Part shown: positions 26,460 to 52,114 of the stretch, piece by piece
How positions within the stretch are numbered: position 1 is the stretch's first letter
How the letters are laid out: every line of letters begins with the position of its first letter
Assembly (NCBI RefSeq): GCF_001458195.1
Contig: NZ_CYPU01000011.1
Coordinates: 62,001-126,000 of the forward strand
Source: Ruegeria atlantica
Lineage (GTDB): Bacteria > Pseudomonadota > Alphaproteobacteria > Rhodobacterales > Rhodobacteraceae
Direction of reading: 5' to 3'
DNA: 64,000 bases
Program-made: the position numbers and the translations under genes
Notes under the pieces: model-generated
What the model saw: the letters and a program-made list of their open reading frames with translations, nothing else
Database searches by the model: none
Told to the model about the DNA's origin: nothing

Positions 26460-26535
26460 TTTTCATTCCTTGCTTGCGCTTACGCGGTGAATGGCGGTTT
26501 TTCGAAACGTCACTGAAGTGGTGGGGCCGTCACCT

Positions 26536-28251: not shown

Positions 28252-28321
28252 TTGTTTGACCTCTCATTTTTCCAAACAATGCTGCGCGACAAAAAAATAC
28301 GCATCAGATCGTGTTTGATAA

Positions 28322-28546
28322 TCAAGTGTTGGACCAATCGACTTGCTTCAGTTCTTCTTTGCTGAACCCTAAAGGTGTTTCTGGAAGAGGATTGGGTTCA
28401 TACTTTCTTCGCCCATTTTTGCGATTGCGTTTCTTTTCAAGTTCGTACGCCAAGCGATCTTGCGGAGACAATTTTTGTTTGAACTCCGACATGATCTTTC
28501 GGCGTTGTTTCCTCGTAGAACCTTTTGGAAATGTCGGAAATTTCAT
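28322..28546 (-). CDS. Small basic protein leading the NERD/GmrSD operon
   Basis: The 74-residue protein starts at ATG 28546 with GGAG about 7 bases upstream. It begins MKFPTFPKGSTRKQRRKIM and continues with DRLAYELEKKRNRKNGRRKYEP, strongly basic, with an acidic C-terminus (SKEELKQVDWSNT). It resembles small nucleic-acid-binding accessory proteins. It is the first gene before the NERD-helicase (70-base gap). No family recognised. Confidence 0.6.
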   Translation of the reverse strand: MKFPTFPKGSTRKQRRKIMSEFKQKLSPQDRLAYELEKKRNRKNGRRKYEPNPLPETPLGFSKEELKQVDWSNT

Positions 28547-28796
28547 TCGCTACTCCTCTCACGGCAAGTGCGCCATTCTCGACATATCCAATGCGTCGGA
28601 CATCTAGATACGTATGTAACGGCGACATCTTTCACTCGCTTTATGAGGATATCGGATGTGAAGGAACGTGTCGTTTTCGATTATCCGTCATTCTCTTGCC
28701 ACTTTTTGTCATTTCCATCCAAAATTGATCCAAATCACTTCAAACCAAAATCAGAAGAAGTATCTGTTTGTAAACGTCATTCATTGGAAACCAAAA

Positions 28797-29885
28797 ATGT
28801 GGAAAGATCTCAAGAAAATTTGTGAACTTCAACCAAATTACTCGTCCAAGAATACACCTCGGATGCAACTCAGAGGTGAGGTGTTGCGCGGCCCAGTCAA
28901 GGACGCCATCGAGGATCTGGAAACCGTGTTGGCTCCCAAATTGGGGCGTTTCGGGGGCTCCTTCCATGTCGATGCTTCCGACGGTGTCGGTCGTAAGACG
29001 GAACTTCCTTGGGTTCGGTTCTGTTCGTCCGAGATGTCACCTCGACCAACTGAAGGTTTCTACTGTGTCATTCACTTCTCTACGGATGGGAGCGCTGTGC
29101 ACGTGACGCTCAGCTGCGGGTCATCGCGGTTCAAAGGGGGCGAATTCGTCATCTTGCCTGATCGCGAGATCGATGCGCAGACGTCTTGGGCGAGGGCGAT
29201 CGTCGCCAACGAATTTGGTTCCTTGGAGCCATTCGTCGACGATGCAGAATTCGGTGCTACGAGGCCTTTGCCCAAGGCATTCCAACGCGCAGTAGCGATA
29301 TCGAAACGCGTCGCATACGAGGATTTGGAAGTGACTGACTTTCCAGATCTCTTCGCCTCTGCGGCTGAGAGGCTCAAAGCCATTTACGATGCGCAATCCA
29401 CGGGTCGAGATCTCGCACCGGCCGATATGGACGAGGCTGATCTAGAGAAGGCGATCAGCCCAATGAAAATTGGGGGCCGACGTCAGGGGTATGGCCTGCC
29501 TGCCGCTGCCAGAAAGGCCGTCGAGCTGCGAGCGATGGACGTGGCTCGGATCGACTTGGAAGGCCGAGGATTCGAGGTAATCGATCGCTCCGCAAATCAT
29601 TCTTACGACTTCGAGGCCAAGAGACATGGCCTAGTCATGAAAGTCGAGGTCAAGGGCACGACGAGTGATCGAGCCGATGCAATCTTGATGACGCGTAACG
29701 AAGTTGAACTGCACAGGACTGAGAAAGGAACGACGAGCCTGATGATCGTCTCGGGAATACGCTTGGACAGAGTAGGGGGCGAGTATTCGGCCAGCGGAGG
29801 CACGTTGGAGGCATTGGACAGCTGGGACGTGGATGAGTGGATGCTGGAAGCGACTGCATTCAGAGTTTCGAGAAAGCTCGATTGA
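28797..29885 (+). CDS. MrcB_N (DUF3578)-DUF3883 protein
   Basis: The 362-residue protein from ATG 28797 has an N-terminal part resembling the MrcB N-terminal (DUF3578) domain: LKKICELQPNYSS, LPWVRFCSSEMSPRPTEGFY, VIHFSTDGSAVHVTLSCGSS. The C-terminal part is DUF3883, a predicted PD-(D/E)xK-type nuclease: SYDFEAKRHGLVMKVEVKGT and AILMTRNEVELH. MrcB_N domains recognise modified DNA in several restriction systems, so the protein likely cuts modified or foreign DNA by itself. A longer start at 28668 adds 43 residues without homology. It is divergent from the NERD/GmrSD operon, with a 250-base shared promoter region. Confidence 0.8.
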   Translation: MWKDLKKICELQPNYSSKNTPRMQLRGEVLRGPVKDAIEDLETVLAPKLGRFGGSFHVDASDGVGRKTELPWVRFCSSEMSPRPTEGFYCVIHFSTDGSAVHVTLSCGSSRFKGGEFVILPDREIDAQTSWARAIVANEFGSLEPFVDDAEFGATRPLPKAFQRAVAISKRVAYEDLEVTDFPDLFASAAERLKAIYDAQSTGRDLAPADMDEADLEKAISPMKIGGRRQGYGLPAAARKAVELRAMDVARIDLEGRGFEVIDRSANHSYDFEAKRHGLVMKVEVKGTTSDRADAILMTRNEVELHRTEKGTTSLMIVSGIRLDRVGGEYSASGGTLEALDSWDVDEWMLEATAFRVSRKLD

Positions 29886-30063
29886 TGGCAGTGACTGGGG
29901 CAAGATAGCAATCAAAACAATGAGTTGGGTTCTTCTTGGGTGTTTGGGTAAGTTGTTGATTGCCGGGGTTGAAACCGGTAGTTTCACTGTAGGTCGTCCG
30001 GATGCGGAGAAATCAATCTGAACTCGACATGGGCGCAGAAAAAGAACGACGAGACGAGGATGG

Positions 30064-31155
30064 GTGACAGAATTGAAGATGCTGGGCGCGATTGATCTCT
30101 TTTGTGGTGCTGGTGGGTTGACGTGTGGGCTGAGACGCTCGGGCGTCGACGTGCTCGCTGGCGTCGATGTCGACGAAAAATGTCGGCACGCGTTCGAGGT
30201 CAACAACGGCGCCGAGTTCCTCCTGGAAGACGTCAGCCAGCTTTCTGCGGCGAAGTTGCATGAGTTGTTCGACGGTACGTCCATTCGCATTTTGGCAGGC
30301 TGCGCGCCTTGCCAACCGTTTTCGACTTATTCACACCGTTACGAAACCGTCGGCACGCCGCGGTGGGGTCTACTCTATCACTTCGCCAGGTTGGTACGGG
30401 CGGTAAGGCCTGAAATCGTGACGATGGAAAACGTTCCCTCCGTATCGAAACACCAAGTCTATCATGACTTCGTAGCGACGCTCGAAGACCTGGGCTATCA
30501 GGTTTGGAATGCTGTCGTAGACTGCCGTGACCATGATCTTCCTCAGATGAGAAAGAGAACAGTGTTGATGGCGTCTCTATTGGGTCCGATCCAGATTTCC
30601 GACCAGAGTGCGCTCGCTCACAAGACCGTGCGCGATGCGATATACGATCTACCCCCACTGGAAAATGGCCAATCAGACGACAAAGACCGATTGCATGTTG
30701 CGGCCAAGTTGTCGCCTCTCAATCTTGAACGTATGAGAGTTTCGAAGCCGGGAGGGACATGGCGGGATTGGCCGGAGGAATTGGTGGCGGCTTGCCATCG
30801 CAAATCCTCTGGTAAGACCTATCCTGGCGTCTACGCGCGCATGGAATGGGATAAACCTTCTCCAACACTGACGACGCAATTCTTCGGATTTGGAAATGGT
30901 CGTTTTGGACATCCAGAGCAGGATAGAGCCATTTCTCTCAGGGAAGGCGCAATCCTTCAAGGTTTCCCACCGAGTTACTCTTTCCTACCTGGAGATGAGC
31001 ACGTTCAATTCAAAACACTAGGTCGCCTCATCGGCAACGCCGTGCCAGTTGCGCTCGGAGAAACGATCGGTCGCAGCATCTTACAATCCTTGCAACTCGA
31101 AGGCGAAGACAATCATGACCAAGCGAAAGAGCCTGGTCGTACCCTCGTCGCCTGA
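30064..31155 (+). CDS. C5-cytosine DNA methyltransferase at the head of the DISARM operon
   Basis: The 363-residue protein has the C5-methyltransferase motifs: IDLFCGAGGLTCGL (motif I), AGCAPCQPFSTYS (catalytic Cys of PCQ, motif IV), MENVPS (motif VI), QMRKRTVLMAS (motif VIII region) and LGRLIGNAVPVALG (motif X). It methylates cytosines in a short sequence that cannot be read from the protein. GTG 30064 sits close after a GAGG; ATG 30079 is an alternative. It corresponds to the methylase role of DrmMII in class 2 DISARM but sits before class 1 genes here, and overlaps the Vsr gene by 41 bases. Confidence 0.9.
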   Translation: MTELKMLGAIDLFCGAGGLTCGLRRSGVDVLAGVDVDEKCRHAFEVNNGAEFLLEDVSQLSAAKLHELFDGTSIRILAGCAPCQPFSTYSHRYETVGTPRWGLLYHFARLVRAVRPEIVTMENVPSVSKHQVYHDFVATLEDLGYQVWNAVVDCRDHDLPQMRKRTVLMASLLGPIQISDQSALAHKTVRDAIYDLPPLENGQSDDKDRLHVAAKLSPLNLERMRVSKPGGTWRDWPEELVAACHRKSSGKTYPGVYARMEWDKPSPTLTTQFFGFGNGRFGHPEQDRAISLREGAILQGFPPSYSFLPGDEHVQFKTLGRLIGNAVPVALGETIGRSILQSLQLEGEDNHDQAKEPGRTLVA

Positions 31156-31552
31156 AGCGTCTGAAAGGCTCTCCAGGGTGCGGCAAAGGGATACGTCCGC
31201 GGAATTAAGTCTCAGAAAGACACTGCATGCTCGGGGTCTCAGATACCGGGTCGGGGTCAAACTCATCGACAAGCCTCGCCGCGTCGCCGACATAGTGTTT
31301 CGGCTCAAGCGCGTCGCTGTGTTCGTAGATGGGTGTTTCTGGCACGGTTGTCCGGAGCACGGATCGACTTCGAAGAGCAACGCGGAGTTCTGGAAGTCGA
31401 AGATCGAAGCCAACGTCGCAAGGGACTCAGATACGAACGAGCGGCTCACGCGAGCAGGCTGGAAAGTGATCCGTGTCTGGGAACACGAAGACCCAAACGA
31501 AGCGGCCGATAAGATATGCCGCGAATTGGAGAAGACGAATGAATACGATTGA
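31115..31552 (+). CDS. vsr: Vsr-family very short patch repair endonuclease
   Basis: The 145-residue protein from ATG 31115 carries the family motifs DTSAELSLRKTLHARGLRYR, RVADIVFRLKRVAVFVDGCFWHGCPEH (metal-binding Asp and His cluster), FWKSKIEANVARD and GWKVIRVWEHE. Vsr nicks DNA next to T:G mismatches caused by deamination of 5-methylcytosine, so pairing with the upstream C5 methyltransferase is functional sense. It overlaps the methylase gene by 41 bases and drmD by 14 bases, so all belong to one transcript. Confidence 0.9.
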   Translation: MTKRKSLVVPSSPEASERLSRVRQRDTSAELSLRKTLHARGLRYRVGVKLIDKPRRVADIVFRLKRVAVFVDGCFWHGCPEHGSTSKSNAEFWKSKIEANVARDSDTNERLTRAGWKVIRVWEHEDPNEAADKICRELEKTNEYD

Positions 31553-34500
31553 AACGATCACCCCTGAAAACTCGCTGCGCCGAGACTTACCGGAGGTGGG
31601 GCAACTCGTGAATGTTCGTCGCAGACAGTGGATCGTAGCCGATGTCGACGTTCGACCGAGTTCCAAGGGTCGCGCACAGCAGAGTCTCGTGAACTTGTCC
31701 TCCATAGATGAAGATGCCCTCGGTGAGGAGTTGAACGTCGTCTGGGAATTGGAGCCGGGTGCTGGGGTGATCGAAGGGGCCGGACTACCTCGTTTCAGTA
31801 ATAAGGTGGACGACGCCGAGACTTTGAACGCGTTCCTGGATGCAGTCAGGTGGGGGGCGGCGACGAACGTCGATCGCGGCTATCTTCAATCACCTTTCAG
31901 AAGCGGCGCAAGTATCGAGGACTTTCAACTCGATCCTTTGGTTCGCGCCATCGACATGCCCAGAACGAACCTGCTGATTGCCGATGACGTAGGTCTTGGA
32001 AAGACCATCGAAGCTGGGTTGATCATTCAAGAGATGCTCATACGCCACCGCGCGAGGACGATGCTCGTTCTGTGTCCAGCGTCACTGCAAGAAAAGTGGC
32101 GCATGGAGATGCAAGAGAAGTTTGGCCTCGAGTTCAGGATCGTGGACTCGGCCTATGTCTCCAAGCTCCGTCGGGAGCAAGGTTTGCACGCTAACCCATG
32201 GACGTCGTACCCGCGCTTGATCACATCCATCGACTGGGTGAAGCAGGGCGAGGGTTTGCGGCTGTTCAGAGATGCATTGCCGTCCCGCGTCCAACACCCA
32301 AGAAAATTCGATCTACTGGTCATCGATGAAGCACATAACGTTTCTCCGAGGGTCGGGCGCTATGCGGTAGAGAGCCTCAGAACGCGGTTGGTTCGGACGA
32401 TTGCCCCGCATTTCCAACACAAGCTCTTCCTGACTGCGACGCCACACGATGGCTATACGGAGTCGTTCACGGCTCTATTAGAATTGCTCGACGATCAACG
32501 CTTCGCTCGCAACGTCTTGCCCTCGGAATCTCAGCTTTCTCGAGTGATGGTTCGCCGGCTCAAAAGTGACCTCGTGGATGCAGAGGGAAACAAGATCTAC
32601 CCCGTCCGCAAGCTGGAGGCGCTCAAGGTCGATTACTCCGATGACGAACGCAAAATCAGAAACGTCTTGGACGCATATATAGATGAGCGTGTTCGAGGCG
32701 ATGGAGGATCGGGAAAGTCGGGTTCATTCGTATACCAGCTGCTCAAGAAACGTCTCTCTTCCTCTCCCGCGGCTTTTTCTGCGACGATCCATCGTCACAT
32801 TGATACGCTGGAGGGCCGCGTTCGGAAGGACGTGAAACGCGGCAAGTTGGAAGACAGAATCCTGAGGCGCGCAATCGCCAAGTCGATGGAGGATTACGAC
32901 GACGACGATTTGAGAGACGAAGCGGAGATGAGTGCCATCGACGCGGAGGGGCGGCGCATGCGACCTGCGTCCGACGAAGAGCAAATTTTGCTGAACAAGA
33001 TGCGCGCCTGGGCTGAAGAAGCGCGCAATCAAACCGACGCAAAGGCGGATGCCATACTCGACTGGCTGGATGCGAACCTCAGGAAAAACGGCGATTGGAC
33101 GAATGAAAGGGTCATTCTCTTCACGGAATATCGAGCGACGCAGGCTTGGCTCCAAGAAATCTTGGTGACCCGTGGCTTTGGCGGCGATCGCCTCGGTCTC
33201 ATCTACGGCGGCATGGACGACGACGAAAGAGAGACGGTAAAGGCGGCGTTCCAAGCGGATCCGAAGGATTCGCCCATCCGAATATTGCTGGCGACTGACG
33301 CAGCCTCCGAGGGTATCGACCTACAGAACCACTGCCGAATGATGATCCACCTCGAAATTCCTTACAATCCCAACGTCATGGAACAGAGGAATGGTCGGAT
33401 CGATCGACATGGTCAAAAAGCAAAGGAAGTCTTCATCTGGCATCCAGTGGATGGCGACGGGCGTCATGGCGACGACATCATCATGGCACTGCGCAAGCTG
33501 GATCAGATGCGATCCGATATGGGGAGCGTGAACCCGGTGATTTCTCCTCAAGTCCCCGATCTTCTCGAAGGGCGGCTCTCCGACTTCGACTTAACGGAGG
33601 CGAAAGCCCGCATTCAGAGCACCAGAAAATACGTCAAAGTCGAAGCAGACATAGCCGTACGCGTGAATAAGCTGCACGAGAGGCTTTCTGAAACGCGATC
33701 CGAGCAGAATTTCGAGCCAGAAAACGTTGAACGCGTAGTGCGCACCGCGCTTGCGCTGGCTGAAATGCCCGATCTCGAACCCAAGGCCTTGGATGGGGCA
33801 CCCATTGGCAGCGTCTTCTTGATGCCGGCTTTGTCAGGTTCTTGGAACCGATGCCTAGAGGGCCTCGAGCATCCTTATACTGGAGAGATGCGGCCAATTA
33901 CCTTCGATCACGAGATATCCAAGGGCAGAGATGACGTCGTTCTCGTCCACTTGAACCACCGCCTCGTTCAGATGAGTTTGCGCCTTCTCCGAGCCCAGAT
34001 ATGGACTCAAGAACAGACGGAACGGTCTTTGTCGCGTGTCGCGGTAAGATCTCTGCCCGATGCGGAGCTTGCGAAACCTGCTGCAATCGTCGTGTCTCGC
34101 CTCGTCGTCGTTGGTGGAAATCACCACCGGTTACACGAGGAACTGACCGAGTCGGGAGGTCAATTGAGCGACCGAGGGTATCGTCGAATAGAGCGCGTAT
34201 CAGATGTCAGATCGATGCTCGATCGATCGAAGCCAGTTGCGCTGGATGACGCGGAATTGACGAGGTTGAGTAGGCAATTCGATGACGTCAGGGACTCGAT
34301 CACTGCAACCGTCGAGGCGAGATCCAGAGACAGGGTGCGCAACTTGACCAACACGATCGATAATAGACGAAAGAAAGAAATCTCGGACACCGAGACGCTA
34401 CTTTCTGAGTTACAGAACTCTCTCGAGATGGAGCTAAAAAAAGACAACGAACCGCAGCAGTTGTCGCTCTTCACCGAAGACGAGCGTTTTCAGCTCACAC

Positions 34501-34664
34501 GTGACAGAGAGGCGTTGGAACAGCGTCTTTCTCGGATCCCTGAAGAACTAGAGGCCGAGACCATGGCGATCGACGCACGACATTCCAACATCACCGACCA
34601 CACGTTCCCCGTCGCCGTGGTGCTGCTCGTTCCGGAGAGCATGGCCAAAGGAGAAATTCGATGA
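31539..34664 (+). CDS. drmD: DrmD, SNF2-type helicase of class 1 DISARM
   Basis: The 1041-residue protein has SNF2 ATPase motifs ADDVGLGKTIEAG (149-160), VIDEAHN (near 262), LTATPHDG, and EQRNGRIDRHGQKAKEVFIWH (motif VI). The C-terminal 400 residues are charged and helical. DrmD is the defining extra helicase of class 1 DISARM, the methylation-dependent defence that lets self DNA pass and blocks phage DNA. ATG 31539 is chosen for GGAG about 8 bases upstream. It overlaps the next gene by four bases (ATGA). Confidence 0.9.
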   Translation: MNTIETITPENSLRRDLPEVGQLVNVRRRQWIVADVDVRPSSKGRAQQSLVNLSSIDEDALGEELNVVWELEPGAGVIEGAGLPRFSNKVDDAETLNAFLDAVRWGAATNVDRGYLQSPFRSGASIEDFQLDPLVRAIDMPRTNLLIADDVGLGKTIEAGLIIQEMLIRHRARTMLVLCPASLQEKWRMEMQEKFGLEFRIVDSAYVSKLRREQGLHANPWTSYPRLITSIDWVKQGEGLRLFRDALPSRVQHPRKFDLLVIDEAHNVSPRVGRYAVESLRTRLVRTIAPHFQHKLFLTATPHDGYTESFTALLELLDDQRFARNVLPSESQLSRVMVRRLKSDLVDAEGNKIYPVRKLEALKVDYSDDERKIRNVLDAYIDERVRGDGGSGKSGSFVYQLLKKRLSSSPAAFSATIHRHIDTLEGRVRKDVKRGKLEDRILRRAIAKSMEDYDDDDLRDEAEMSAIDAEGRRMRPASDEEQILLNKMRAWAEEARNQTDAKADAILDWLDANLRKNGDWTNERVILFTEYRATQAWLQEILVTRGFGGDRLGLIYGGMDDDERETVKAAFQADPKDSPIRILLATDAASEGIDLQNHCRMMIHLEIPYNPNVMEQRNGRIDRHGQKAKEVFIWHPVDGDGRHGDDIIMALRKLDQMRSDMGSVNPVISPQVPDLLEGRLSDFDLTEAKARIQSTRKYVKVEADIAVRVNKLHERLSETRSEQNFEPENVERVVRTALALAEMPDLEPKALDGAPIGSVFLMPALSGSWNRCLEGLEHPYTGEMRPITFDHEISKGRDDVVLVHLNHRLVQMSLRLLRAQIWTQEQTERSLSRVAVRSLPDAELAKPAAIVVSRLVVVGGNHHRLHEELTESGGQLSDRGYRRIERVSDVRSMLDRSKPVALDDAELTRLSRQFDDVRDSITATVEARSRDRVRNLTNTIDNRRKKEISDTETLLSELQNSLEMELKKDNEPQQLSLFTEDERFQLTRDREALEQRLSRIPEELEAETMAIDARHSNITDHTFPVAVVLLVPESMAKGEIR

Positions 34665-37600
34665 GCATTAGATTTGACTGGTTGAACCTCATCGAACTGT
34701 CCGGGCCATTTCTAGCCGAGCCGGTTTTGAATCAAGCCATGCCAGACGGTTTGGACGCGCTCGAGCGAAACGTCGGTCCTCGATTGAGGTCAGCTTACAT
34801 AGAATGGCGTGACGCCGTAGATGCTTCCGACCCGCTTCTGGATGCGATCCATTCTGCATGGATCGACGAAGTACTGACGAATGGATTGGACTACGATGAG
34901 CAGACGCTTCTGCGAGGCGAAGAGGGCTTAATTGGACCAATTTTGAAGCTCAGCGCGGACAAGTCCAGTCGACTGCCGGACATGGTTCTCGTCGACCCTT
35001 CCAAGCCAACTGAGCCTCTATTGCTGATCGGCGTTCATGAACCAGACCTGGATCTGGATGTGACCCAAAAAAAGGACGGGAACATCGCGACGCCAAAAGA
35101 GGCGATGGTCAACGCATTACGGAAGTCCGGTTGTCCCCTCGGTTTGGTCACGAACGGAGAGGCATGGACCTTGGTTCACGCCCCTGAAGGAGAAATCGCC
35201 AGTTTTGCAACTTGGTATGCCAGAATGTTCGGCCTGGAACGTGACACGCTTAGAGCATTCGTCAGCCTGCTCGAATTGTCGAGGTTCACAGGGCCAGCTT
35301 CGGAAAGCCTGCCGGAATTGTTCAACACTTCAAAAGCCCATCAAGGCGACGTCACCGAAGCCCTTGGTGATCAAGTCGCCGATGCCATCGAAGTCTTGAT
35401 GCGGGCTCTCGATCGTGCAGACCAGGATCGCAACCGCGACCTACTTGCTGACGTCGAGCCGACCACACTCTATGAGGCCGGACTGACATTGATGATGCGC
35501 CTCGTGGTGATCTTGTCGGCGGAAGAGCGGGATCTCCTTTTACTCGGAGATCCGATTTACGACGCCAACTACGCCATCTCCAGCTTGCGCGCGCAGCTTT
35601 CGGCGACGGACCCGGAAATCCTCGAACGCAGAAACTCGGCGTGGTCCAGGTTGCTGGCCACGTTCAGGCTCGTCCATGCTGGTGTCGATCACCCGGATCT
35701 CCGCCTTCCTGCATTGGGCGGCTCGCTTTTCCATCCCGACAGGTTCCCCTTCTTAGAGGGTCGCAAGCGAGGGTCGACCTGGCAATCCGAAGCGGCGGAA
35801 CCCCTTCCGATCGACGATCGGACCGTTCTGCTTCTTCTCGAAGCCATTCAGAGGTTTCGGGGTCGGACACTGTCCTACCGAGCATTGGATGTCGAGCAAA
35901 TCGGGCATGTATATGAAGGTTTGCTCGATCAGACAGCGGATCGCGTAACCGGCCTGACCCTGCAGCTCAAAGGTGCGTCCAAGGCAAAGACACCACTCGT
36001 CAAACTCGAGAAACTGGAGCGGCTGAACGGGTCCGAACGCATCAAACATCTCGTCGAGGTCACTGAACGATCGGAAGGCGCAATCAAGTCGGACCTCGAG
36101 AAATCGCCAGATGCTAGCGATCAGGCAAGGTTGCTGACGAGTTGTCGTGCTGACGCCGACTTGAGGGACCGCATCCTGCCCTACGTACATCTCATCGACG
36201 TGGATCCTTGGGGTATGCCCATCGTTCACCATGACGGGGCCATCGTAATCGTTCGGGGCACGGATCGTAGAGAAAGCGGCTCTCACTACACGCCCAAGAG
36301 CCTGACCGAGAAAATCGTCGAGGAGACACTGACACCCGTCGTCTATCGCGGGCCGGCCGAGGGGGTCGACGAGGCTGATTGGGAGCTCAAGTCTCCAGCC
36401 GAAATCTTGGATCTCAAGATCTGTGACCCTGCCATGGGGTCGGGGGCTTTCCTGGTTCAAGTTTGCCGTTGGCTGTCTGTCAAATTGGTAGAAGCATGGG
36501 GTAATGCAGAAGAGCGTGGAGGGTTCGTGGACGCAGAAGGCGCCGTTCACGAAAGCCAGGACACCGTCAAAGATCCGTTGCCGTTGGATATCGAAGAGCG
36601 GACGATTGAGGCGCGGCGTCTGATCGCTGAAAAGTGCCTCTATGGGGTCGACATGAACCCCATGGCTGTCGAGCTGGCGAAACTATCTCTTTGGTTGACC
36701 ACTGTTGCGAAGGGTCGGCCATTTGGGTTCCTGGACCACAATCTTAGATCTGGTGACAGCTTGCTCGGCATCGACGACATCAATCAGGTCATCGAGTTGA
36801 ATATGAAACCGAAACGCGGCGATCAGCTCAACCTATTCGGTCGCAGTATTCGTTCCGCTGTCGATCAAGCCATCGAGCTCCGAAAGCAACTTAGAGCAAC
36901 GCCAATTCGAGATGTCGAAGACGTCAAAGCCATGGAACGGTTGGACCAAGAGTCTCGTAGATTACTCGATCTTCCCTTGTTGATTTCAGACGCTTTTGTC
37001 GGCTGTATTCTGGCAAAGAAAAAGGGTTCCGCTCTATCGGAGGAGCTTGGTGAAATAGGGGCTCATGCTGACGAGGCAGTTGGTGCAAACCCAGAAGCAG
37101 TTGATTTACTCTCGCTATCTTCTCGCCGAGATCTGTCTGTAGATGCTTCAAATCGCAAGCCAAGGATGCCATTTCACTGGCCGCTAGAGTTTCCAGAAGT
37201 TTTTGAGCGCGAAGACGGCGGATTCGATGCGTTTATAGGAAACCCTCCGTTTCTTGGCGGACAACGGATAACGGGAATAATGGGAACCGTATACCGCGAT
37301 TGGCTGGTAGCATTTATTGCTGAAGGACGAAGAGGATCGGCGGATCTAGTTTCGTATTTCTTTCTTAGGGTTGCGGCTTTGCTCCGTGATGAAGGAAGTT
37401 TTGGACTGCTGGCGGTGAATACGATCTCTGAAGGGGACACTCGCGAAGTTGGTTTGGATGCGATTCTAGGCCAGGGATTTACGATTTATGCCGCTTATCC
37501 GAATGAAAAGTGGCCTGGATCGGCAGCAGTTGTAACTAGTAGGGTACACGCCCGAAAAGGGGACTGGAATGCAAATGCGATCTTACTTGGAAAAGAAACG

Positions 37601-38986
37601 CCATATATTTCAGCGCAATTATCGGACGATACGAATTGGACGCCTGTTCCACTGAAGTCCAATCAAAGTCTAGCGTTTCAGGGGTGTTGTACGCGAAGTA
37701 CAGGTTTTATCATCCCGGAAGACCTAGCGAGAGAAATGCTCTCTAGCGACCCAAAAAACTGTGATGTAGTTTTTCCTTATCTGAATGGTCGTGATCTTAA
37801 TTCCGATCCATTTCAGAAAGCAACTCGTTGGGCAATTAACTTTTGGGACTGGTCTGAGGAGCGTGCAAGTAAATATGAAGTACCTTTCAGTTATGTTGCT
37901 GAAAATGCAAAGCCAGATAGATTTCGAAAGAAGGCGAATGGGCAGTTCGCATGCGCAGAACCACTCAGGAGAGAGTGGTGGCTGTACGAGGGCAAGAGAT
38001 CAGGCTTGTTTCATGCTATCGGTCGCGGTCATCATTTCGAGAAGCATCCCGAAGGATGGGTGCCAACTAGCAATAAACTTGATAGAGTTCTAGCGCTTAC
38101 CCGAGTGAGCAAAACACTGGCTTTTTGCTTGGTCGACGCGAGGTCTGTTTATTCAGACCAAACGATCATTTTTGCTACTGATGATCATGCTACCCTTTCA
38201 CTCCTGCAGTCTTCTATACATTCAGTCTATGCTTGGCAGCATTCTTCCAAACTAAAGAATGATCTTAGATACTCGCGATCTGATGTCTTGGAAACTTTTC
38301 CATTTCCGCGTCATGTCGTTGCAAATGACATGAGAGACTTGGGAGCGGCGCTGGAAAAAGAGCGCAACTCCATAATGGTTTCACAGGAAATTGGGCTGAC
38401 TAAATTATATAACTCCATGCACAGTCAGGACAAAAATAGTGTTCGTCTTCAAGACATGCGAGACCTACACGCCTCAATAGACCAGGCTGTTTTGGCATCC
38501 TACGACTGGTCAGATATTGAACTGGAGCACGATTTTCATGCGGTTCCCTACCTTCCCGAGAGCGACCGAATTCGCTTTACAATTTCAGAAGGGGCGCGTC
38601 GCGAAATTCTCCGACGCCTCGCAGAACTAAATCGCGAACGATATCAAGAAGAAGTCGAGCAGGGATTGCATGGCGAAGCGAAAGAGAAAAAGAAATCTTC
38701 GCCAAAACGCTCCAAAGCCGTTGCAACACCCGCCGAACCGACGCTGCCTCTAGATGCGCCAGAACCTTCGGCCAAGAAAAGCCCACCGAAACGAGATGCC
38801 ATATTGTCGTTTTTGAAGAACCGACCCGGGCGCCACGGCAAGGCCAACATCTTTCAATCGGTTCGTATGACCTCATCCGAATGGAAAGAGGCCATCGACG
38901 AGTTGGTTTCGGAAGGACTGGTCTCTCAACAGGGCACGGCCCCCAATTTCAGCTACTCGATTTCGGAAGCTCAGAAGAATGACTGA
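34661..38986 (+). CDS. drmMI: DrmMI, adenine DNA methyltransferase of DISARM
   Basis: The 1441-residue protein is a large N6-adenine methyltransferase: CDPAMGSGAFLVQV (SAM-binding motif I, near 588) and IGNPPFLGG (catalytic NPPF motif IV, near 860), with a target-recognition region behind it and a Lys/Pro-rich linker followed by a winged-helix-like C-terminus (KANIFQSVRMTSSEWKEAIDELVSEGLV). It marks host DNA for DISARM. Base composition changes inside the gene: from about 37.1 to 38.5 kb the DNA is clearly richer in A and T and in codons such as ATA, AGG and TTA, suggesting replacement of the target-recognition part. The gene overlaps drmD by 4 and drmA by 8 bases. Confidence 0.9.
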   Translation: MSIRFDWLNLIELSGPFLAEPVLNQAMPDGLDALERNVGPRLRSAYIEWRDAVDASDPLLDAIHSAWIDEVLTNGLDYDEQTLLRGEEGLIGPILKLSADKSSRLPDMVLVDPSKPTEPLLLIGVHEPDLDLDVTQKKDGNIATPKEAMVNALRKSGCPLGLVTNGEAWTLVHAPEGEIASFATWYARMFGLERDTLRAFVSLLELSRFTGPASESLPELFNTSKAHQGDVTEALGDQVADAIEVLMRALDRADQDRNRDLLADVEPTTLYEAGLTLMMRLVVILSAEERDLLLLGDPIYDANYAISSLRAQLSATDPEILERRNSAWSRLLATFRLVHAGVDHPDLRLPALGGSLFHPDRFPFLEGRKRGSTWQSEAAEPLPIDDRTVLLLLEAIQRFRGRTLSYRALDVEQIGHVYEGLLDQTADRVTGLTLQLKGASKAKTPLVKLEKLERLNGSERIKHLVEVTERSEGAIKSDLEKSPDASDQARLLTSCRADADLRDRILPYVHLIDVDPWGMPIVHHDGAIVIVRGTDRRESGSHYTPKSLTEKIVEETLTPVVYRGPAEGVDEADWELKSPAEILDLKICDPAMGSGAFLVQVCRWLSVKLVEAWGNAEERGGFVDAEGAVHESQDTVKDPLPLDIEERTIEARRLIAEKCLYGVDMNPMAVELAKLSLWLTTVAKGRPFGFLDHNLRSGDSLLGIDDINQVIELNMKPKRGDQLNLFGRSIRSAVDQAIELRKQLRATPIRDVEDVKAMERLDQESRRLLDLPLLISDAFVGCILAKKKGSALSEELGEIGAHADEAVGANPEAVDLLSLSSRRDLSVDASNRKPRMPFHWPLEFPEVFEREDGGFDAFIGNPPFLGGQRITGIMGTVYRDWLVAFIAEGRRGSADLVSYFFLRVAALLRDEGSFGLLAVNTISEGDTREVGLDAILGQGFTIYAAYPNEKWPGSAAVVTSRVHARKGDWNANAILLGKETPYISAQLSDDTNWTPVPLKSNQSLAFQGCCTRSTGFIIPEDLAREMLSSDPKNCDVVFPYLNGRDLNSDPFQKATRWAINFWDWSEERASKYEVPFSYVAENAKPDRFRKKANGQFACAEPLRREWWLYEGKRSGLFHAIGRGHHFEKHPEGWVPTSNKLDRVLALTRVSKTLAFCLVDARSVYSDQTIIFATDDHATLSLLQSSIHSVYAWQHSSKLKNDLRYSRSDVLETFPFPRHVVANDMRDLGAALEKERNSIMVSQEIGLTKLYNSMHSQDKNSVRLQDMRDLHASIDQAVLASYDWSDIELEHDFHAVPYLPESDRIRFTISEGARREILRRLAELNRERYQEEVEQGLHGEAKEKKKSSPKRSKAVATPAEPTLPLDAPEPSAKKSPPKRDAILSFLKNRPGRHGKANIFQSVRMTSSEWKEAIDELVSEGLVSQQGTAPNFSYSISEAQKND

Positions 38987-41900
38987 TTCAACGAAACCAA
39001 ACTCACGTACACCCTCGGCTTGGCTTCTCTCTGGTGCGGATGCCCAATCCACGGAATTCACTTACCGCTTTGACCTTCCAGCTGGGGGAAGGTCAGCCAT
39101 CGACGATGGCGACTGGGTTCTCGTACTTGATGGTGCGCGGATACGCCAGATTGGCCGGATCGCTCGTGTTCGACGAAATCGTGAGGGGATCACCATTCAT
39201 CTCGACCGAAGCGCCAAAACCGATAGCGGACCGGATGTGACGTCGCTTGGTCTTACTGTGCCGACGGCCCCACTTACTCGGACAAATTGGGAGGACATGC
39301 AAAACAGTCTCAAAGCATTTGGTCTGGACGACTGGCGCAAAGTTCCAAAGATCGAAGACCACATACATGTTCGAGACGTGCTCGAAGGATCGGTGCGAGA
39401 CGATCTACTGGGACCGGCGGGGGGTCCAGAAGAGTTCATCGTCGACATGAGTGTGCGCGATCGCTACCTCGTCGGCAAACTTGCTCCGATGACGCAGCTT
39501 CCCTCTAGCAAGGATAGACCAGAACCGACCAGTGCGTCCGATGAAGTACCCGACCTCGAGGAGGAGCGTTACGAAGAAAGGCGCCACGAGCCAGGTGCTG
39601 ACTTTGCTTCCGTTTCCGGTCGGGTGGACGGTGAAGAGGATGCGTTAGACGAAGTCGACACGTCCAACAATCAGTCATTGATACCTTCGAGCCTCGGCAT
39701 GACGTTCTGCGTTGCACCTGGTGTCGAGCGGATCGTCGTGGAAGCGCATTGGGGCCGGTACGAGCGCCTTTCGAGCGATGAACACGACTACGTCAAAAAA
39801 AGAAAGAACCAAGAGACGGGTGCCGATGAGGAAGTTCCTGCTCGGGTTTGGGGCAGAACTCAGTGCGGTGGAAACAAAGAACTCGACTTGATAGACGGCT
39901 CCATTCAGCCCTACGAAGTGGATCCAGTAAACGGGGATGTTCGGATCCAGGGCACCATCCGAACGAATGAAGCTGGAGAACGTCTGGTCACTCTGTTTTT
40001 GGTCAACGCTCAAACGGAGCCAGAGCAAAACAAAGATGAAGCGTGGATCTTCCAGCCTGAGCTGATCGTTCGAGGACCGGAAAACTCTGACGAAGGCTCC
40101 GTTTTTCGTCGCCGCCCCGCCACTGAAAACCTAGGTGACGACCCAGAGCGCGATCGACTCTCATTGATCTATCGGAACCGGCTGGAATTCGCGGTCGGGC
40201 ATGGCGTTTCCGTGCATGTCGATGTCGACGATCTCGATAGAGCGCGTGCTTCGCGCATTCAAACCGAGGTCATTCCGCGGCAAGAAATCGAGGTTACGGA
40301 CACTCCAGGGCTCGACCCTGACGATCGGCCAGCCATGCGACGCATGATCGACGAAGGTTGGCTCGACATGAACAACCTCGCAACGATGAGCGAGGACGAT
40401 CTCAGAACAGCGTTGTCTTGTCTCTTGGACGATCATGCAGCTTGGATCCGCGAACAAGAGGGTCGGCTTGGCACTGAGATCCAGGGTTTCGACCAACCGG
40501 GCAGAGATGTCTTGGATCGCTGCGAGGAAACCAACGCTCGTTTGCGAGAAGGTATGGAACACCTCTTCAAAGATTCCAAAGCTCTGGAGGCCTTTCGTTT
40601 CGCCAATCTAGCGATGGCGAAACAACGTGTGCACAGCATCTACGCAAGAGAGCGACGGCGGGATGCAAAAACGCAGCTCCAACCTCTGGATGTTCCCAAA
40701 AACCGTTCCTGGCGCGCGTTTCAGCTCGCGTTCCTGCTTCTTTCGATACCTTCACTGGCAGACCCCAAGCATCAAGACCGCACGAAGCCATCTGCGGCTT
40801 TTGCCGACCTTCTTTGGTTCCCAACGGGTGGTGGTAAGACGGAGGCCTATCTCGGCGTGGCAGCATTTGCGATGTCGATCCGCAGACTGAAATCCGATCT
40901 CGGCGGCTTAGATGGGTCACGTGGCTTATCGGTGATCATGCGCTACACTCTGCGCCTTTTGACGCTGCAGCAATTCCAGAGGGCAACGGCGCTCTTGTGC
41001 GCTATGGAGACCATTCGACTGAATGATACGCAGAAATGGGGCGTCGAACCTTTCACACTAGGTCTTTGGGTTGGTAATCGCGTGACGCCTGGGACCACGA
41101 CTGCGTCCAAAGATGCCGTTCAGAAACTCAAGACTGAAGGGGCCAATACAGCAGGTCTCAGCTCCCCAGCTCAATTGACCAGTTGCCCGTGGTGCGGTTC
41201 CGATATCGTGCCAGGAAAGCACCTCGAAGTGGATGCCGATTTGGGTCGGACCACGATCTACTGCGGTGACAAGTACAATCAATGTGACTTTTCCAAAGGT
41301 AAGTCCCACAATCGCGACCATCCGGGATTGCCGGTGAAAGTGGTCGACGAAGAAATTTATCACAGACCACCCACGATGATGATCGCGACAGTGGACAAGT
41401 TTGCGATGATGGCATGGAAGCCCGAAGTGGGGAACTTGTTCGGGAAAGCCGACCAGGAATGCGAACGGCACGGCCTCTTGTGGCCTGGTCATGATTGCGG
41501 AACAGGGCATACCAAGAAGGGCAAACTGCCCAAGGCGCGAGTGATGCCCGTCACGAGGCTCCGTCCTCCGGATCTCATCATTCAGGACGAATTCCACCTC
41601 ATCAGCGGTCCCTTGGGAACGATGGTTGGGCTCTATGAAGCTGCGGTCGACGAATTGAGTACTTGGACGCTCGATGGCGAAACGGTCCGCCCCAAAATCG
41701 TCGCCTCGACCGCGACGGTTCGCCGAGCGGAAGAACAGGTTCGCAACGTGTTCATGCGGCGCGTCTCCATTTTTCCGCCGACTGGCCTAGACGTAGAGGA
41801 CAACTTTTTCTCTGTTCAACGTTCGATTTCAGAGAGAGCGGGACGTCGTTACATCGGATTGTGCGCACCTGGCGCGTCGCGCCCGGCGGTTCTTATTCGC

Positions 41901-42977
41901 GTCTACACGGCATTCCTCACTGCATCGGAGTGGTGTTTCGAACGGTTCGGCGAAGTCGCCGACCCCTACATGACGCTTGTCGGTTATTTCAACTCGCTTA
42001 GAGAACTAGGTGGGATGCGCAGGCTGGCTGAAGACGACGTCAAGACACGTGCATTTCGTGTTTCGATGAGCCTCGTCGAACGACCGGGGCTCACACAGCG
42101 TTCGCTGAGAGAGCCAAGTGAACTGACGTCTCGTGTCTCCAGCCAAGACATCCCAAAATACCTCGACAACCTTGATCTGACCTTCAAGGCTGTGTTCGAC
42201 GACAAGGAGGACAAATGGAAGCGTCATCGTTTGGACGGTGAAGACTACCCCACGGATCTAGTATTGGCGACGAACATGCTCTCGGTTGGTGTCGATGTCG
42301 ACCGGCTTGGTCTGATGGTGGTGAATGGTCAGCCCAAAGGTACTGCGGAATACATTCAGGCTAGCTCGCGCGTCGGTCGTTCGTTTCCTGGATTGGTCGC
42401 GACGGTTTTGACCTGGGCAAGACCCAGGGACTTGTCGCACTACGAGAGCTTCGAACACTTCCATTCGTCTTTCTATCAATATGTCGAAGCACAATCCGTT
42501 ACCCCTTATTCTCCTCGTGCAATGGACCGCGGATTGACGGGGGCGATGTTGTCGATGCTGCGCCAGGGGCATGTCGACTTGCGTGCCAACGACGCGGCTG
42601 GATCCATGACCACGTCTTCGAAGCCGGAAATGGTGGAGGTATCGAACGCGATCAGTGAACGCGTTTGGGAGGTCACCGAGAACAAACTGCGCATGAAGGA
42701 AAGCCAGAAGGAATTAAGAAAGCGTGCGGACGAATGGGTGAAAGAAGCCGGCGTCGCAGGGCGAACCCTCGTTTACAAGAAAAAGAAATCTGGCGGCACC
42801 GATTATGAAATCCTCGATGAACCAGGAAAAGCAGCATGGGGTAGGTGGACGGTGCCTATGTCGATGCGAGAAGTAGAGCCGAGCGTCGGGCTGATCATGA
42901 CCGACGGCAAATCTCATACTGACCCGGATTGGGTCCCTCAAAAGAAGACCTCTGACCAAGGGGGAGAGAACCCATGA
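38979..42977 (+). CDS. drmA: DrmA, helicase core subunit of DISARM
   Basis: The 1332-residue protein has a divergent superfamily 2 helicase: FPTGGGKTEAYLGVAAF (Walker A near 612), IIQDEFHLISGPLG (DEFH box near 866), and ATNMLSVGVDVDRLG with QASSRVGRSFPGL (motifs V-VI, near 1100-1130). A zinc-binding insertion (SCPWCGSD and later YNQCDFS) lies near 735-770. DrmA with DrmB forms the core DNA-sensing complex of DISARM, which loads on DNA with single-stranded 5' ends (family knowledge). It overlaps both neighbours by a few bases, in one transcript. Confidence 0.92.
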   Translation: MTDSTKPNSRTPSAWLLSGADAQSTEFTYRFDLPAGGRSAIDDGDWVLVLDGARIRQIGRIARVRRNREGITIHLDRSAKTDSGPDVTSLGLTVPTAPLTRTNWEDMQNSLKAFGLDDWRKVPKIEDHIHVRDVLEGSVRDDLLGPAGGPEEFIVDMSVRDRYLVGKLAPMTQLPSSKDRPEPTSASDEVPDLEEERYEERRHEPGADFASVSGRVDGEEDALDEVDTSNNQSLIPSSLGMTFCVAPGVERIVVEAHWGRYERLSSDEHDYVKKRKNQETGADEEVPARVWGRTQCGGNKELDLIDGSIQPYEVDPVNGDVRIQGTIRTNEAGERLVTLFLVNAQTEPEQNKDEAWIFQPELIVRGPENSDEGSVFRRRPATENLGDDPERDRLSLIYRNRLEFAVGHGVSVHVDVDDLDRARASRIQTEVIPRQEIEVTDTPGLDPDDRPAMRRMIDEGWLDMNNLATMSEDDLRTALSCLLDDHAAWIREQEGRLGTEIQGFDQPGRDVLDRCEETNARLREGMEHLFKDSKALEAFRFANLAMAKQRVHSIYARERRRDAKTQLQPLDVPKNRSWRAFQLAFLLLSIPSLADPKHQDRTKPSAAFADLLWFPTGGGKTEAYLGVAAFAMSIRRLKSDLGGLDGSRGLSVIMRYTLRLLTLQQFQRATALLCAMETIRLNDTQKWGVEPFTLGLWVGNRVTPGTTTASKDAVQKLKTEGANTAGLSSPAQLTSCPWCGSDIVPGKHLEVDADLGRTTIYCGDKYNQCDFSKGKSHNRDHPGLPVKVVDEEIYHRPPTMMIATVDKFAMMAWKPEVGNLFGKADQECERHGLLWPGHDCGTGHTKKGKLPKARVMPVTRLRPPDLIIQDEFHLISGPLGTMVGLYEAAVDELSTWTLDGETVRPKIVASTATVRRAEEQVRNVFMRRVSIFPPTGLDVEDNFFSVQRSISERAGRRYIGLCAPGASRPAVLIRVYTAFLTASEWCFERFGEVADPYMTLVGYFNSLRELGGMRRLAEDDVKTRAFRVSMSLVERPGLTQRSLREPSELTSRVSSQDIPKYLDNLDLTFKAVFDDKEDKWKRHRLDGEDYPTDLVLATNMLSVGVDVDRLGLMVVNGQPKGTAEYIQASSRVGRSFPGLVATVLTWARPRDLSHYESFEHFHSSFYQYVEAQSVTPYSPRAMDRGLTGAMLSMLRQGHVDLRANDAAGSMTTSSKPEMVEVSNAISERVWEVTENKLRMKESQKELRKRADEWVKEAGVAGRTLVYKKKKSGGTDYEILDEPGKAAWGRWTVPMSMREVEPSVGLIMTDGKSHTDPDWVPQKKTSDQGGENP

Positions 42978-44815
42978 ACAAAACGAGAGTTGGTGAGATC
43001 CGCCCTAGTCAATTGCTCTGGACATATGGCCCTGGCGCTTTGATCGACTTGCCCAATATGTCGGTGATCACACTGGGTATCGATCAATGGGACGAAACGC
43101 GTTGTGAGGAAGTGCGTGAAAGTAGGCTGCTTTCAGCTGTGACCAAGGTGATGGGACCTCAAGTCGAAAGCCTCAAAAAGCCTCCCATGACAGACGAAGA
43201 ACCGACGAGCCCGATGCATGCCGCTGCTTTGGTAGGTGTGCCCGTGAAACCCTTTCCACGGTGGCTTCGTTGCGTCAAATGCGGGTTGCTATCCCCCTAC
43301 GATGCAGGGCTGTTCGACCTCAAAAAGTCTCCCTACCGGCCGGAGGCAACACGTTTCGTTCATAAGGGGTGTACGGGCTCCAGGGGGAACCTGAACCCGA
43401 CGGACGCGGACGCAGTCCCGGCAAGGTTCCTGCTCGCCTGCCGTGCTGGTCATCTCGACGATTTCCCCTGGCACTGGTTCGTGCATGGCGGTCCAAGTTC
43501 ATGCAAAGGCACGCTCAGGTTCTACGAAAGCGGAGCTTCACTCCAAACGGAGAACCTCTGGGTCAAATGTGATACGTGTGGTGCCTCCAGGAACATGGCT
43601 CAAGCGAGCGGCGAAATCGGTCGTCAGAACCTACCGGCATGCCGCGGGCGTCACCCACACCTAGATACATTCGAGGGCTCTTGCGACGAGGCACCCCGAG
43701 CGATCAACCTCGGTGCAACGAACGGATGGTTTGCCGTTTCCCTTTCCGTCTTGGCGATACCGAAGAAAGGCGACTCGCTGGGTCAGCTGATCCAGGATGG
43801 ATGGAAGGTCTTCGAGAAGTGTAAAAACGAGATCGAGCTCGAAATACGGGTCGACACGTTGAAAGACATGGGCACTTTACCGGGCATCGAGAATTACTCC
43901 ATGGGCGAGATCTGGAAGGCGATAGAAGCACTCCGATCTGGTGGCGACAGTGAAGACCAAAGCGACCTGAAGCACCCCGAATGGGAGGTTTTCACAGCCG
44001 ATGAGATTCCTGAGGGTGCGAATTTTCTGGCCGAAAAGGTGGGCGTGCCCTCGCAGTTCAACAAGGCTATCGAACGAACCGTCTTGTTGAAGAGATTGCG
44101 TGAGGTCAACGCCTTGTTGGGTTTCACGAGGGTGGAGGCGCCTGAAGAAGGCGCAGGAAGCTCTGCTGCTCCGAGAGCGCCGTTGGGGAAAGGCGCTCCG
44201 ACTTGGGTGCCGGCCTTCGAAGTGCATGGTGAAGGGATCTTTCTCAAATTCGATACCAAAGCATTGGAGGCATGGGAGGCCAAAGATGCGGTCAAGCGCC
44301 TCGATGAGCGCATGCAAAAAGGCTACCGGGGTTGGCGTCAGAAACGTGACCTTGATCCAGATGAGGGGTATTTGGGTGTGCGCCACGCAATGCTTCATAC
44401 ACTGTCGCATCTCTTGATCAGAGAACTGGCTCTAGAATGCGGTTACAACGCCGCCAGCATTCGCGAACGCATATACGCGGACACGGAGGACGGTCGCGAC
44501 CAAGCGGGGATTTTGATTTACACTGCAGCAGCGGACTCGGACGGAACCCTTGGCGGCCTGGTCGACTTAGGACAACCGGCGCGCCTAGGTCCCATTTTGG
44601 ACCAAGCGCTCCGCAGAGCTCAGATCTGTGCATCCGACCCCCTTTGTTCGGAACACGACCCTTCCAAGGACCAATCCCTTCACGGTGCTGCATGCCATGC
44701 GTGTTGCCTCGTGTCGGAAACGTCCTGTGAGGTGGGCAACCGCAACCTCGACCGTGCATTGGTGGTTCCAACTCTGGAAAACCAAGATGCCGCATTTTTT
44801 GGTGACAGCCTGTGA
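42974..44815 (+). CDS. drmB: DrmB, DUF1998-domain subunit of DISARM
   Basis: The 613-residue protein starts MNKTRVGEIRPSQLLWTYGPG, the usual opening of DrmB, and has several zinc-binding pairs (LRCVKCGLLSPY near 99, VKCDTCGASRN near 198) and a C-terminal DUF1998-type end with Cys pairs (HAACHACCLVSETSCEVGN) before LVVPTL. DrmB partners DrmA and regulates its DNA access. The ATG lies in an ATGA overlap with drmA, and the stop overlaps drmC. Confidence 0.92.
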   Translation: MNKTRVGEIRPSQLLWTYGPGALIDLPNMSVITLGIDQWDETRCEEVRESRLLSAVTKVMGPQVESLKKPPMTDEEPTSPMHAAALVGVPVKPFPRWLRCVKCGLLSPYDAGLFDLKKSPYRPEATRFVHKGCTGSRGNLNPTDADAVPARFLLACRAGHLDDFPWHWFVHGGPSSCKGTLRFYESGASLQTENLWVKCDTCGASRNMAQASGEIGRQNLPACRGRHPHLDTFEGSCDEAPRAINLGATNGWFAVSLSVLAIPKKGDSLGQLIQDGWKVFEKCKNEIELEIRVDTLKDMGTLPGIENYSMGEIWKAIEALRSGGDSEDQSDLKHPEWEVFTADEIPEGANFLAEKVGVPSQFNKAIERTVLLKRLREVNALLGFTRVEAPEEGAGSSAAPRAPLGKGAPTWVPAFEVHGEGIFLKFDTKALEAWEAKDAVKRLDERMQKGYRGWRQKRDLDPDEGYLGVRHAMLHTLSHLLIRELALECGYNAASIRERIYADTEDGRDQAGILIYTAAADSDGTLGGLVDLGQPARLGPILDQALRRAQICASDPLCSEHDPSKDQSLHGAACHACCLVSETSCEVGNRNLDRALVVPTLENQDAAFFGDSL

Positions 44816-45573
44816 CCAAACTCGAAGATGCGACCGCGGTATTCGTTGAGCTTTTGCCTCCAGCGAAGCTTCGTGTGATTGCCGATGCAATCGCCAAGGC
44901 CGCGGTCGATCCCAAGACCCATGCGGTCATGTCTTTGGTGGAAACGGCCAAAGCAAAGTCTGCGTTGGGGCGCTTTCTCGATGCGCTCAAAACCAGTGGA
45001 CTGGATGGCAACGCCGGATCGTTACTATTGAAGTGCGCGAGTCACGTAAGGAGCTCGACCGAGAACGAGCAAAAACTCGAGCTGGCTATGACAGGGCCGG
45101 ATAGTAACGCCGTGGCGACGCGACGAACGGAGCAGGTCTTGCTGGATATGATCCATGAGGCCAAAAACGAGATCGTATTGGTGGCCTTCGTTGCGCAAGA
45201 CAGACCAAAGTTGATTTCCGCATTGAAAGAGGCTGCGGCAAAGGGCACCGAGATCAAGATTTTGCTGGAAGCGGCAAAAGAGCATGGCGGAACGCTGGAC
45301 GAAGACCAAACCGCCATACTCAAACGTGAGTTGCCAGAAGCCCGATTTCACCGATGGAACGTCGAAGGCACGAAATTCCAAGGTGGCAAGGTGCACGCAA
45401 AAGTCGCGGTCGTCGATGGTAGAGTTGCCTTCGTGACGAGTGCGAATTTGACTGGACACGCCATGGAATTGAACCTCGAAGCTGGTGTCCTCGTGCGCGG
45501 GGGTGACATCCCGAGAGACTTGCTTCGCCATCTGGGAGGACTCCTGGATGCAGGCTTCATCGACCAGATTTGA
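44812..45573 (+). CDS. drmC: DrmC, phospholipase D-like nuclease of DISARM
   Basis: The 253-residue protein has a single HKD motif, HAKVAVVDGRVAFVTSANLT (His and Lys near residue 193-195), as in PLD-superfamily nucleases that work as dimers, plus EIVLVAFVAQDRPKLISALK in the first half. It is the accessory nuclease of DISARM. GTG 44812 overlaps the drmB stop (GTGA). It ends the operon; the next gene is on the other strand. Confidence 0.9.
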   Translation: MTKLEDATAVFVELLPPAKLRVIADAIAKAAVDPKTHAVMSLVETAKAKSALGRFLDALKTSGLDGNAGSLLLKCASHVRSSTENEQKLELAMTGPDSNAVATRRTEQVLLDMIHEAKNEIVLVAFVAQDRPKLISALKEAAAKGTEIKILLEAAKEHGGTLDEDQTAILKRELPEARFHRWNVEGTKFQGGKVHAKVAVVDGRVAFVTSANLTGHAMELNLEAGVLVRGGDIPRDLLRHLGGLLDAGFIDQI

Positions 45574-49093: not shown

Positions 49094-49105
49094 CTTCGAT
49101 AGGTT

Positions 49106-49348
49106 TCAGCTTTGATCACGCGCCGGGGAGACGCGACGGCGATCATTCAATGCCGCTCGGATTACTTCGTCGACTGGCCAAACCCTCTGACCGCCGACCA
49201 ATCTGGACTTGACCGCCAGAACCTCTACGAAGCGTGGCCCGATACTAGCGCCCAGTTCGTGAGACAAGATCGTCTGAAGCGTCAACCGATTGGCACGGCG
49301 GGGAAGGGGATCGCCGGGGCACCACAGTGACTTGAGAGGAGCCGTCAT
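49106..49348 (-). CDS. Small hypothetical protein of the element
   Basis: The 80-residue protein starts at ATG 49348 within a 4-base overlap with the upstream AlpA-like gene and ends 12 bases before the primase gene. It is basic with RPRFVEVLAVKS-like and VWPVDEVIRAALNDRRRV sequence, which may be another small DNA-binding fold. No family recognised; its position argues for a role in element regulation or replication. Confidence 0.55.
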   Translation of the reverse strand: MTAPLKSLWCPGDPLPRRANRLTLQTILSHELGASIGPRFVEVLAVKSRLVGGQRVWPVDEVIRAALNDRRRVSPARDQS

Positions 49349-49566: not shown

Positions 49567-49646
49567 GATGTGCCTCCAATTTTGGCTTCACCTCATGCAT
49601 TGCGCAGTTCGAGTGTTCTCAGCAAATCGACTACCAGAACACCTAA

Positions 49647-52112: not shown

Positions 52113-52114
52113 GG

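Follow-up and report, generated by a model that had tools for sequence, protein, structure and literature searches.

Gene content and organization of the operon

Seven plus-strand genes at positions 30064–45573 of the 64,000-nucleotide stretch of Ruegeria atlantica DNA analysed here (contig NZ_CYPU01000011.1, positions 62,001 to 126,000; hereinafter the window) form a class 1 DISARM (defence island system associated with restriction-modification) operon in the order dcm, vsr, drmD, drmMI, drmA, drmB and drmC. Each gene overlaps the next, by 41 bp (dcm/vsr), 14 bp (vsr/drmD), 4 bp (drmD/drmMI), 8 bp (drmMI/drmA), 4 bp (drmA/drmB) and 4 bp (drmB/drmC). This gene set and order, overlapping throughout, had been proposed in an earlier note made from the sequence alone and is confirmed by profile scores, coordinates and motifs. 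All five components that PADLOC requires of class 1 (DrmA, DrmB, DrmC, DrmD and DrmMI) are present. In the operon and its relatives we observe intact catalytic motifs, a conserved linkage of dcm to drmD, a domain of a reader fold in DrmA, and specificity regions that are conserved in Dcm and swapped in DrmMI.

The first gene, dcm (30064–31155, GTG start), encodes a 363-residue cytosine-C5 DNA methyltransferase (PF00145, 8.9e-49; TIGR00675, 117 bits, cut-off 101), for which the top PADLOC model is DrmMII (5.5e-87). It is followed by vsr (31115–31552; TIGR00632, 119 bits, cut-off 98; PF03852) and by drmD (31539–34664), the gene of a 1041-residue SNF2-like helicase (NF038317, 1314 bits, cut-off 610). 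For both we prefer ATG starts, at 31115 and 31539, to the TTG at 31049 and the GTG at 31473; each preferred start lies 66 bases inside the longest open reading frame (ORF). The 1441-residue MmeI/PglX-like adenine methyltransferase encoded by drmMI (34661–38986) contains Eco57I and MmeI_TRD domains and is named through its PADLOC model (PDLC02643, 1701 bits); its specificity half, approximately residues 780–1300 (37000–38560), is highly variable and has a low GC content at third codon positions (GC3). The YprA-family helicase encoded by drmA (38979–42977; 1332 residues) matches NF038325 over residues 131–1307 (1418 bits, cut-off 950), and an EVE-like domain of the PUA superfamily, approximately residues 1–120 (38979–39340), lies outside this NCBIfam model. 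The operon ends with drmB (42974–44815), which encodes the 613-residue DUF1998/MZB partner of DrmA (NF038324, 740 bits, cut-off 240), and drmC (44812–45573), which encodes a 253-residue phospholipase-D-type nuclease (NF038319, 213 bits, cut-off 133). Vsr, DrmD, DrmA, DrmB and DrmC all exceed the cut-offs of their own NCBIfam models, as the methylase exceeds that of TIGR00675.

The catalytic motifs are intact in Dcm (PCQPFS, ENV, QMRKR and GNAV), DrmD (GLGKT and DEAH), DrmMI (NPPF, residue 861), DrmA (GGGKT and DEFH) and DrmC (HAKVAVVD). The whole genome holds a single Vsr match, the one described here, and one further C5 methylase gene, located beyond the window. One promoter-like and one terminator-like site were found at 28100–31700, not above shuffled sequence. 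The best-scoring PADLOC model for full-length DrmD (31473–34664) is PDLC02572, which is named DrmA and is possibly mislabelled.

Linkage of dcm and vsr to drmD

Related loci were collected from genome contigs, 385 genomes of the class, 398 of the phylum, plasmids and viral contigs. On plasmids, 28 records have a DrmD match spanning 80% of the query, and 15 of them were examined; in the genomes of the class, 18 of the 21 DrmD places are weaker part-query matches, which we took for other SNF2 helicases. With the window included, 24 loci have a DrmD at least 54% identical, four of them by a partial DrmD only (L005, L010, L087 and L090). The count treats L043 and L012, which are the same locus, as one and L082 and L083, which share 93% identity over 13 kb, as two; L092 and L093 stand outside it, and L013 is covered for only 1.5 kb upstream of drmD, by tblastn alone.

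A strong Dcm homologue is present in 22 of the 24 loci, just upstream of drmD in 21, with or without vsr in between, and downstream of drmC in one (L034, Deinococcus). The two remaining loci are L008, which has none, and L090, where the drmD match is cut and only a distant C5 methylase is found. Vsr occurs in 16 of the 24 and lies between a dcm of this type and drmD in 14. In the stretches covered, no strong homologue of Dcm or of Vsr occurs at any of the 19 loci whose drmD is below 50%; a distant C5 methylase (E 8e-6) lies downstream in one of them, L094. The pairwise identities of Dcm and DrmD agree across the 22 loci (Mantel r 0.90, with 0 of 5000 permutations as high), a correlation that includes near-copies and is also helped by clade structure. 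No match to the Citrobacter drmD DNA was found in E. coli genomes, and a search of a phage collection returned one relative, at 36%.

The DISARM-borne Dcms fall into two clades. The first (support 100/100, 9 rows) includes the window, Gluconacetobacter, Ruegeria and Microvirga, and the second (support 97/98, 11 rows) Lelliottia, Citrobacter, Alcanivorax and Formivibrio. In the best tree a single branch sets these 20 sequences off, but it is unsupported (44/4), and the Dcms of L034 and L089 stand apart. The tree omits L090 and the second Dcm of L054, and labels L053 as 'other' despite the DrmA/DrmB-like pair ahead of its Dcm. The clades and the agreement of Dcm and DrmD identities indicate an old recruitment of Dcm, in one event or more, followed by joint inheritance with DrmD.

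Dcm relatives also occur in other settings. Ten of 29 plasmid records were inspected, and two more are DISARM loci already counted. Four of the ten lie beside an MAE_28990 HEPN-like nuclease and a DUF262 protein (L049, L050, L051 and L055), four beside an 'ATP-binding protein' (L052, L054, L056 and L058), one behind a DrmA/DrmB-like pair (L053/L100) and one, from Listeria, is unannotated (L057); vsr is found near three (L052, L055 and L053/L100). In L045 and L046, Dcm neighbours a protein that is GHKL-like by eye. HEPN-nuclease/DUF262 systems, ATP-binding-protein systems and DISARM share one Dcm family, whose specificity region is largely constant (L045, L046, L049–L058). The Roseomonas plasmid locus L100 carries in a row, at 2288–9818, a sigma-factor-like gene, a 1012-residue DrmA-like helicase, a DrmB-like protein and a member of this Dcm family, with vsr on the opposite strand and a second such Dcm, accompanied by an HEPN-like nuclease and a DUF262 protein, 12 kb away.

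Conserved Dcm and exchanged DrmMI specificity regions

The specificity of C5 methylases is expected to reside between motifs VIII and IX. Across ten Dcms this span has a mean pairwise identity of 0.70, compared with 0.63 for residues 6–160; within it, residues 166–210 reach 0.52 and residues 211–290 reach 0.80, the highest of any stretch compared. The Dcm of the Lelliottia locus L009, which serves here as proxy for the enzyme of the published Serratia class 1 system (see below), shares 76% of residues 223–290 of the window Dcm.

DrmMI behaves in the opposite way. Across eleven proteins the MmeI-type specificity part (residues 961–1260) has a mean pairwise identity of 0.30–0.37, the lowest apart from the C-terminal tail, and the window drmMI has a GC3 of 0.30–0.48 over residues 781–1320 as against 0.55–0.77 over residues 1–720. 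The DrmMI proteins of L033 and L075 are 0.91 identical over residues 1–720 and 0.23 over 961–1260, while those of L075 and L086 reach 0.68 and 0.71 over the same parts. Judged from these comparisons, the specificity half of DrmMI is exchanged and compositionally foreign, whereas conservation of the Dcm specificity region equals or exceeds that of the remaining enzyme. No report of such an exchange was found in the accessible text of the literature searched. The window contains 33 YMTCGAKR and 31 YMTTGAKR sites, counts that have no control and from which we claim nothing.

An EVE-like domain in DrmA of the dcm-bearing clade

The N-terminus of DrmA has the fold of the EVE/PUA superfamily. Scored with a leave-one-out hidden Markov model, 13 loci are positive and 13 negative for this domain among the 26 scorable of 30 (L077 and L060 lie at an edge, L093 has a cut DrmA and L096 has no DrmA in its stretch). 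A dcm gene is present in 11 of the 12 positive loci with flanks covered, the contig of the thirteenth (L092) ending before the dcm position, and a close Dcm is present in none of the 13 negative loci. The association of the EVE-like domain with the dcm-bearing clade, and its absence from the 13 scorable class 1 systems lacking a close Dcm, appear to be new.

Other N-terminal extensions of DrmA exist. Cyanobacterial class 1 DrmA proteins (L035, L059 and L060, the N-terminus of the last being read in L099 and not scored) share an extension of a different sequence (LP...LDW) in place of the EVE-like domain, and the idea that every DrmA N-terminal extension is a reader was therefore rejected. Viral contigs yielded no relative when searched with the DrmA of L076 and that of L062.

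A Vsr protein with an altered motif

The window Vsr matches E. coli Vsr (1cw0) at 4e-13, and its VDGCFWH aligns with THGCFWH of 1cw0. It belongs to the Vsr family and departs from the canonical E. coli motif, with Asp in place of the active-site His; the first His of THGCFWH is, we assume, catalytic in the E. coli enzyme. The motif could be located in 15 DISARM-linked Vsr proteins (but not in that of L034) and reads VDGCFWH in every one; three non-DISARM Vsr proteins (L052, L054 and L055) have VHGCFWH. Among viral-contig loci whose aligned DNA is 87–93% identical, vsr is present in L082 and L083 and absent from L081, L084, L085 and L088, where 21–70 bases separate dcm from the drmD ORF. By this comparison, vsr comes and goes cleanly as a unit. 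Our best guess for its role, from knowledge of the family, is repair of deaminated 5-methylcytosine (5mC), and the altered motif leaves room for other roles.

Genomic surroundings

The region looks like a defence island, since genes for a GmrSD-like (DUF262/DUF1524) protein and a NERD-UvrD helicase (PADLOC RTasNERD-Hel, 1.4e-72) precede DISARM on the minus strand (24366–28251). Farther upstream (8495–16149) lies a set of genes resembling Zorya type I. Its ZorA-like protein scores 165 bits, below the cut-off of 190, and its ZorD-like SNF2 helicase 299 bits, far short of the 1500 required; the other two members are an OmpA-domain and an EH_Signature protein. Beyond drmC, positions 46393–53938 contain genes for a tyrosine integrase and a large serine recombinase along with AAA_25 and PriCT-2 primase-like genes, which suggests an integrative element. 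In some related loci drmMI and drmA are separated by accessory genes. On the Microvirga plasmid L033 these encode an ATP-binding protein and an O-methyltransferase (23202–25616), and L008 has two other large genes there (12881–16984). L006, L007 and L086 likewise have gaps at this place.

A proposed two-mark mechanism and its alternatives

The mechanism we propose has two writers, Dcm and DrmMI, which would mark host DNA. DrmMI would place an N6-methyladenine (m6A) mark at a sequence set by its exchangeable specificity half, and Dcm a 5mC mark at a target that probably stays the same throughout the clade and lies close to the Serratia site YMT(mC)GAKR. An effector of DrmA–DrmB with DrmD, and perhaps DrmC, would attack DNA that lacks the marks. 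DrmA would probably sense 5mC through its EVE-like N-terminal domain and damp its ATPase on self DNA, and Vsr would probably nick the T:G mismatches left by deamination of 5mC, so that the host keeps its marked sites. We consider this whole, a fixed 5mC self-mark read by DrmA beside an exchangeable m6A mark with Vsr as repair, the best explanation, at slightly less than an even chance. The earlier note had suggested that the system may read two methylation marks, and this part of its interpretation is compatible with the dcm–drmD linkage, the matching identities of Dcm and DrmD, the EVE-like domain and the published 5mC sensitivity of the Serratia system. A stricter form has two keys. Dcm would write an invariant 5mC key, for which DrmA would have a dedicated EVE domain as reader and which Vsr would maintain; DrmMI would write an m6A key whose specificity is swapped by recombination. 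This form we hold doubtful, having lowered our estimate a little because of the Roseomonas locus L100.

A DrmA domain that reads the operon's own 5mC mark would make the way in which DISARM discriminates self from phage testable. A constant mark beside a swappable one would explain how specificity changes without killing the host: the fixed key would prevent self-attack whatever the specificity of DrmMI and make the exchange of its specificity half safe. The link between dcm and a DrmA reader domain, and the contrast of a constant with a swapped mark, are the new content of this proposal. In BREX (bacteriophage exclusion), site binding by PglX is reported to be needed for both defence and methylation (PMC11842806). 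By analogy, DrmMI may set specificity for both, and a swap could then be harmless. Dcm, as a separate enzyme, would not be tied to the effector in this way, and a reader that is fixed would require its target to be fixed as well.

Several observations weigh against the proposal. The DrmA/DrmB-like pair of L100 comes with a Dcm and lacks the EVE-like domain, L008 has the domain without a Dcm, the conserved part of the Dcm specificity region is also kept in relatives outside DISARM, and the correlation between dcm and the domain amounts nearly to one evolutionary event. The L100 and L008 loci equally favour a different explanation, in which Dcm acts independently and the EVE-like domain reads something other than its mark, either the m6A of DrmMI or modified bases of phage DNA. 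YTH domains, which read m6A, fit the EVE-like model almost as well as EVE domains do. We nevertheless find this explanation unlikely: the EVE-like domain is retained across exchanges of the DrmMI specificity half, and most of the 13 systems lacking the domain encode a DrmMI. About equally unlikely, in our estimate, is that Dcm acts outside DISARM altogether, as a constant-target methylase that immunises the DNA of its element against other restriction systems with the same target and is merely carried along. The relatives beside HEPN-like nucleases and DUF262 proteins, ATP-binding proteins and GHKL-like proteins, which keep the conserved specificity part, fit such a role, but dcm lies inside the operon with overlaps, tracks DrmD identity and lacks a close copy in those distant class 1 systems that were tested, and DrmAB activity is reported to change with 5mC (PMC9142583).

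The other alternative in the earlier note, that dcm–vsr is a separate, newer joined restriction module with its own restriction enzyme, found no support. The candidate enzyme is the product of a plus-strand gene at 28668–29885, which could be a nuclease because it carries MrcB_N and NOV_C domains (PF12102, PF13020) and a D...ExK-type motif; we take the MrcB_N domain to be linked to methyl-DNA binding in McrB. The gene is separated from dcm by 178 bp, and we judge it to lie outside the system. In tblastn at 1e-4 its product matched nothing in the related DISARM loci searched, viral contigs and the 384 other genomes of the class likewise gave no match, and plasmids yield five partial matches, none covering 80% of the query. 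No linked endonuclease travelling with dcm was found in the related loci searched, Dcm itself being present in 22 of 24 and Vsr in 16. A recently joined module is therefore largely refuted and, in our estimate, very improbable.

Comparison with known systems

The earlier note had regarded a C5 methylase as typical of class 2. The premise that it is foreign to class 1 fails, for the class 1 DISARM operon of Serratia sp. SCBI is reported to carry two methylases, one N6-adenine and one C5-cytosine (Bravo et al. 2022, PMC9142583), and a class 1/class 2 hybrid is no longer a surprise. That report gives motifs for both methylases, with the C5 mark at YMT(mC)GAKR, and describes a DrmAB without sequence preference that responds to methylation, 5mC lowering its ATPase activity (PMC9142583). 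Serratia DrmA (7s9v) is the only solved relative found. The window DrmA aligns with it over its full length, N-terminal domain included (1640 bits), and the proposed sensor V1296 is conserved as V1299. The Lelliottia DrmA of L009, where dcm directly precedes drmD, scores 2875 bits against it. The window differs in having vsr, none being named for the Serratia operon in the accessible text of PMC9142583; the Lelliottia and Citrobacter loci, the two closest to Serratia by DrmA, have no vsr.

With class 2 DISARM the window shares a C5 methylase, which fits the PADLOC DrmMII model best. PADLOC type II, however, calls for DrmE and DrmMII, whereas the window has DrmD and DrmMI, and no DrmE is among the matches listed for the 16 proteins of the operon and its flanks. 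Type II dcm–vsr restriction-modification modules likewise have a methylase followed by Vsr, but window-type loci have no recurrent linked endonuclease and their Vsr carries VDGCFWH rather than VHGCFWH. No description of Vsr within DISARM operons was found in the accessible text of the literature searched. In ARMADA, a Vsr-type nuclease is instead the C-terminal domain of a helicase (Bell et al. 2025, PMC12458937), unlike the separate gene after dcm in the window. The operon is a true and conserved class 1 DISARM of an already published kind, in a version with vsr that we did not find described; in type it corresponds to the Serratia SCBI system, with vsr added.
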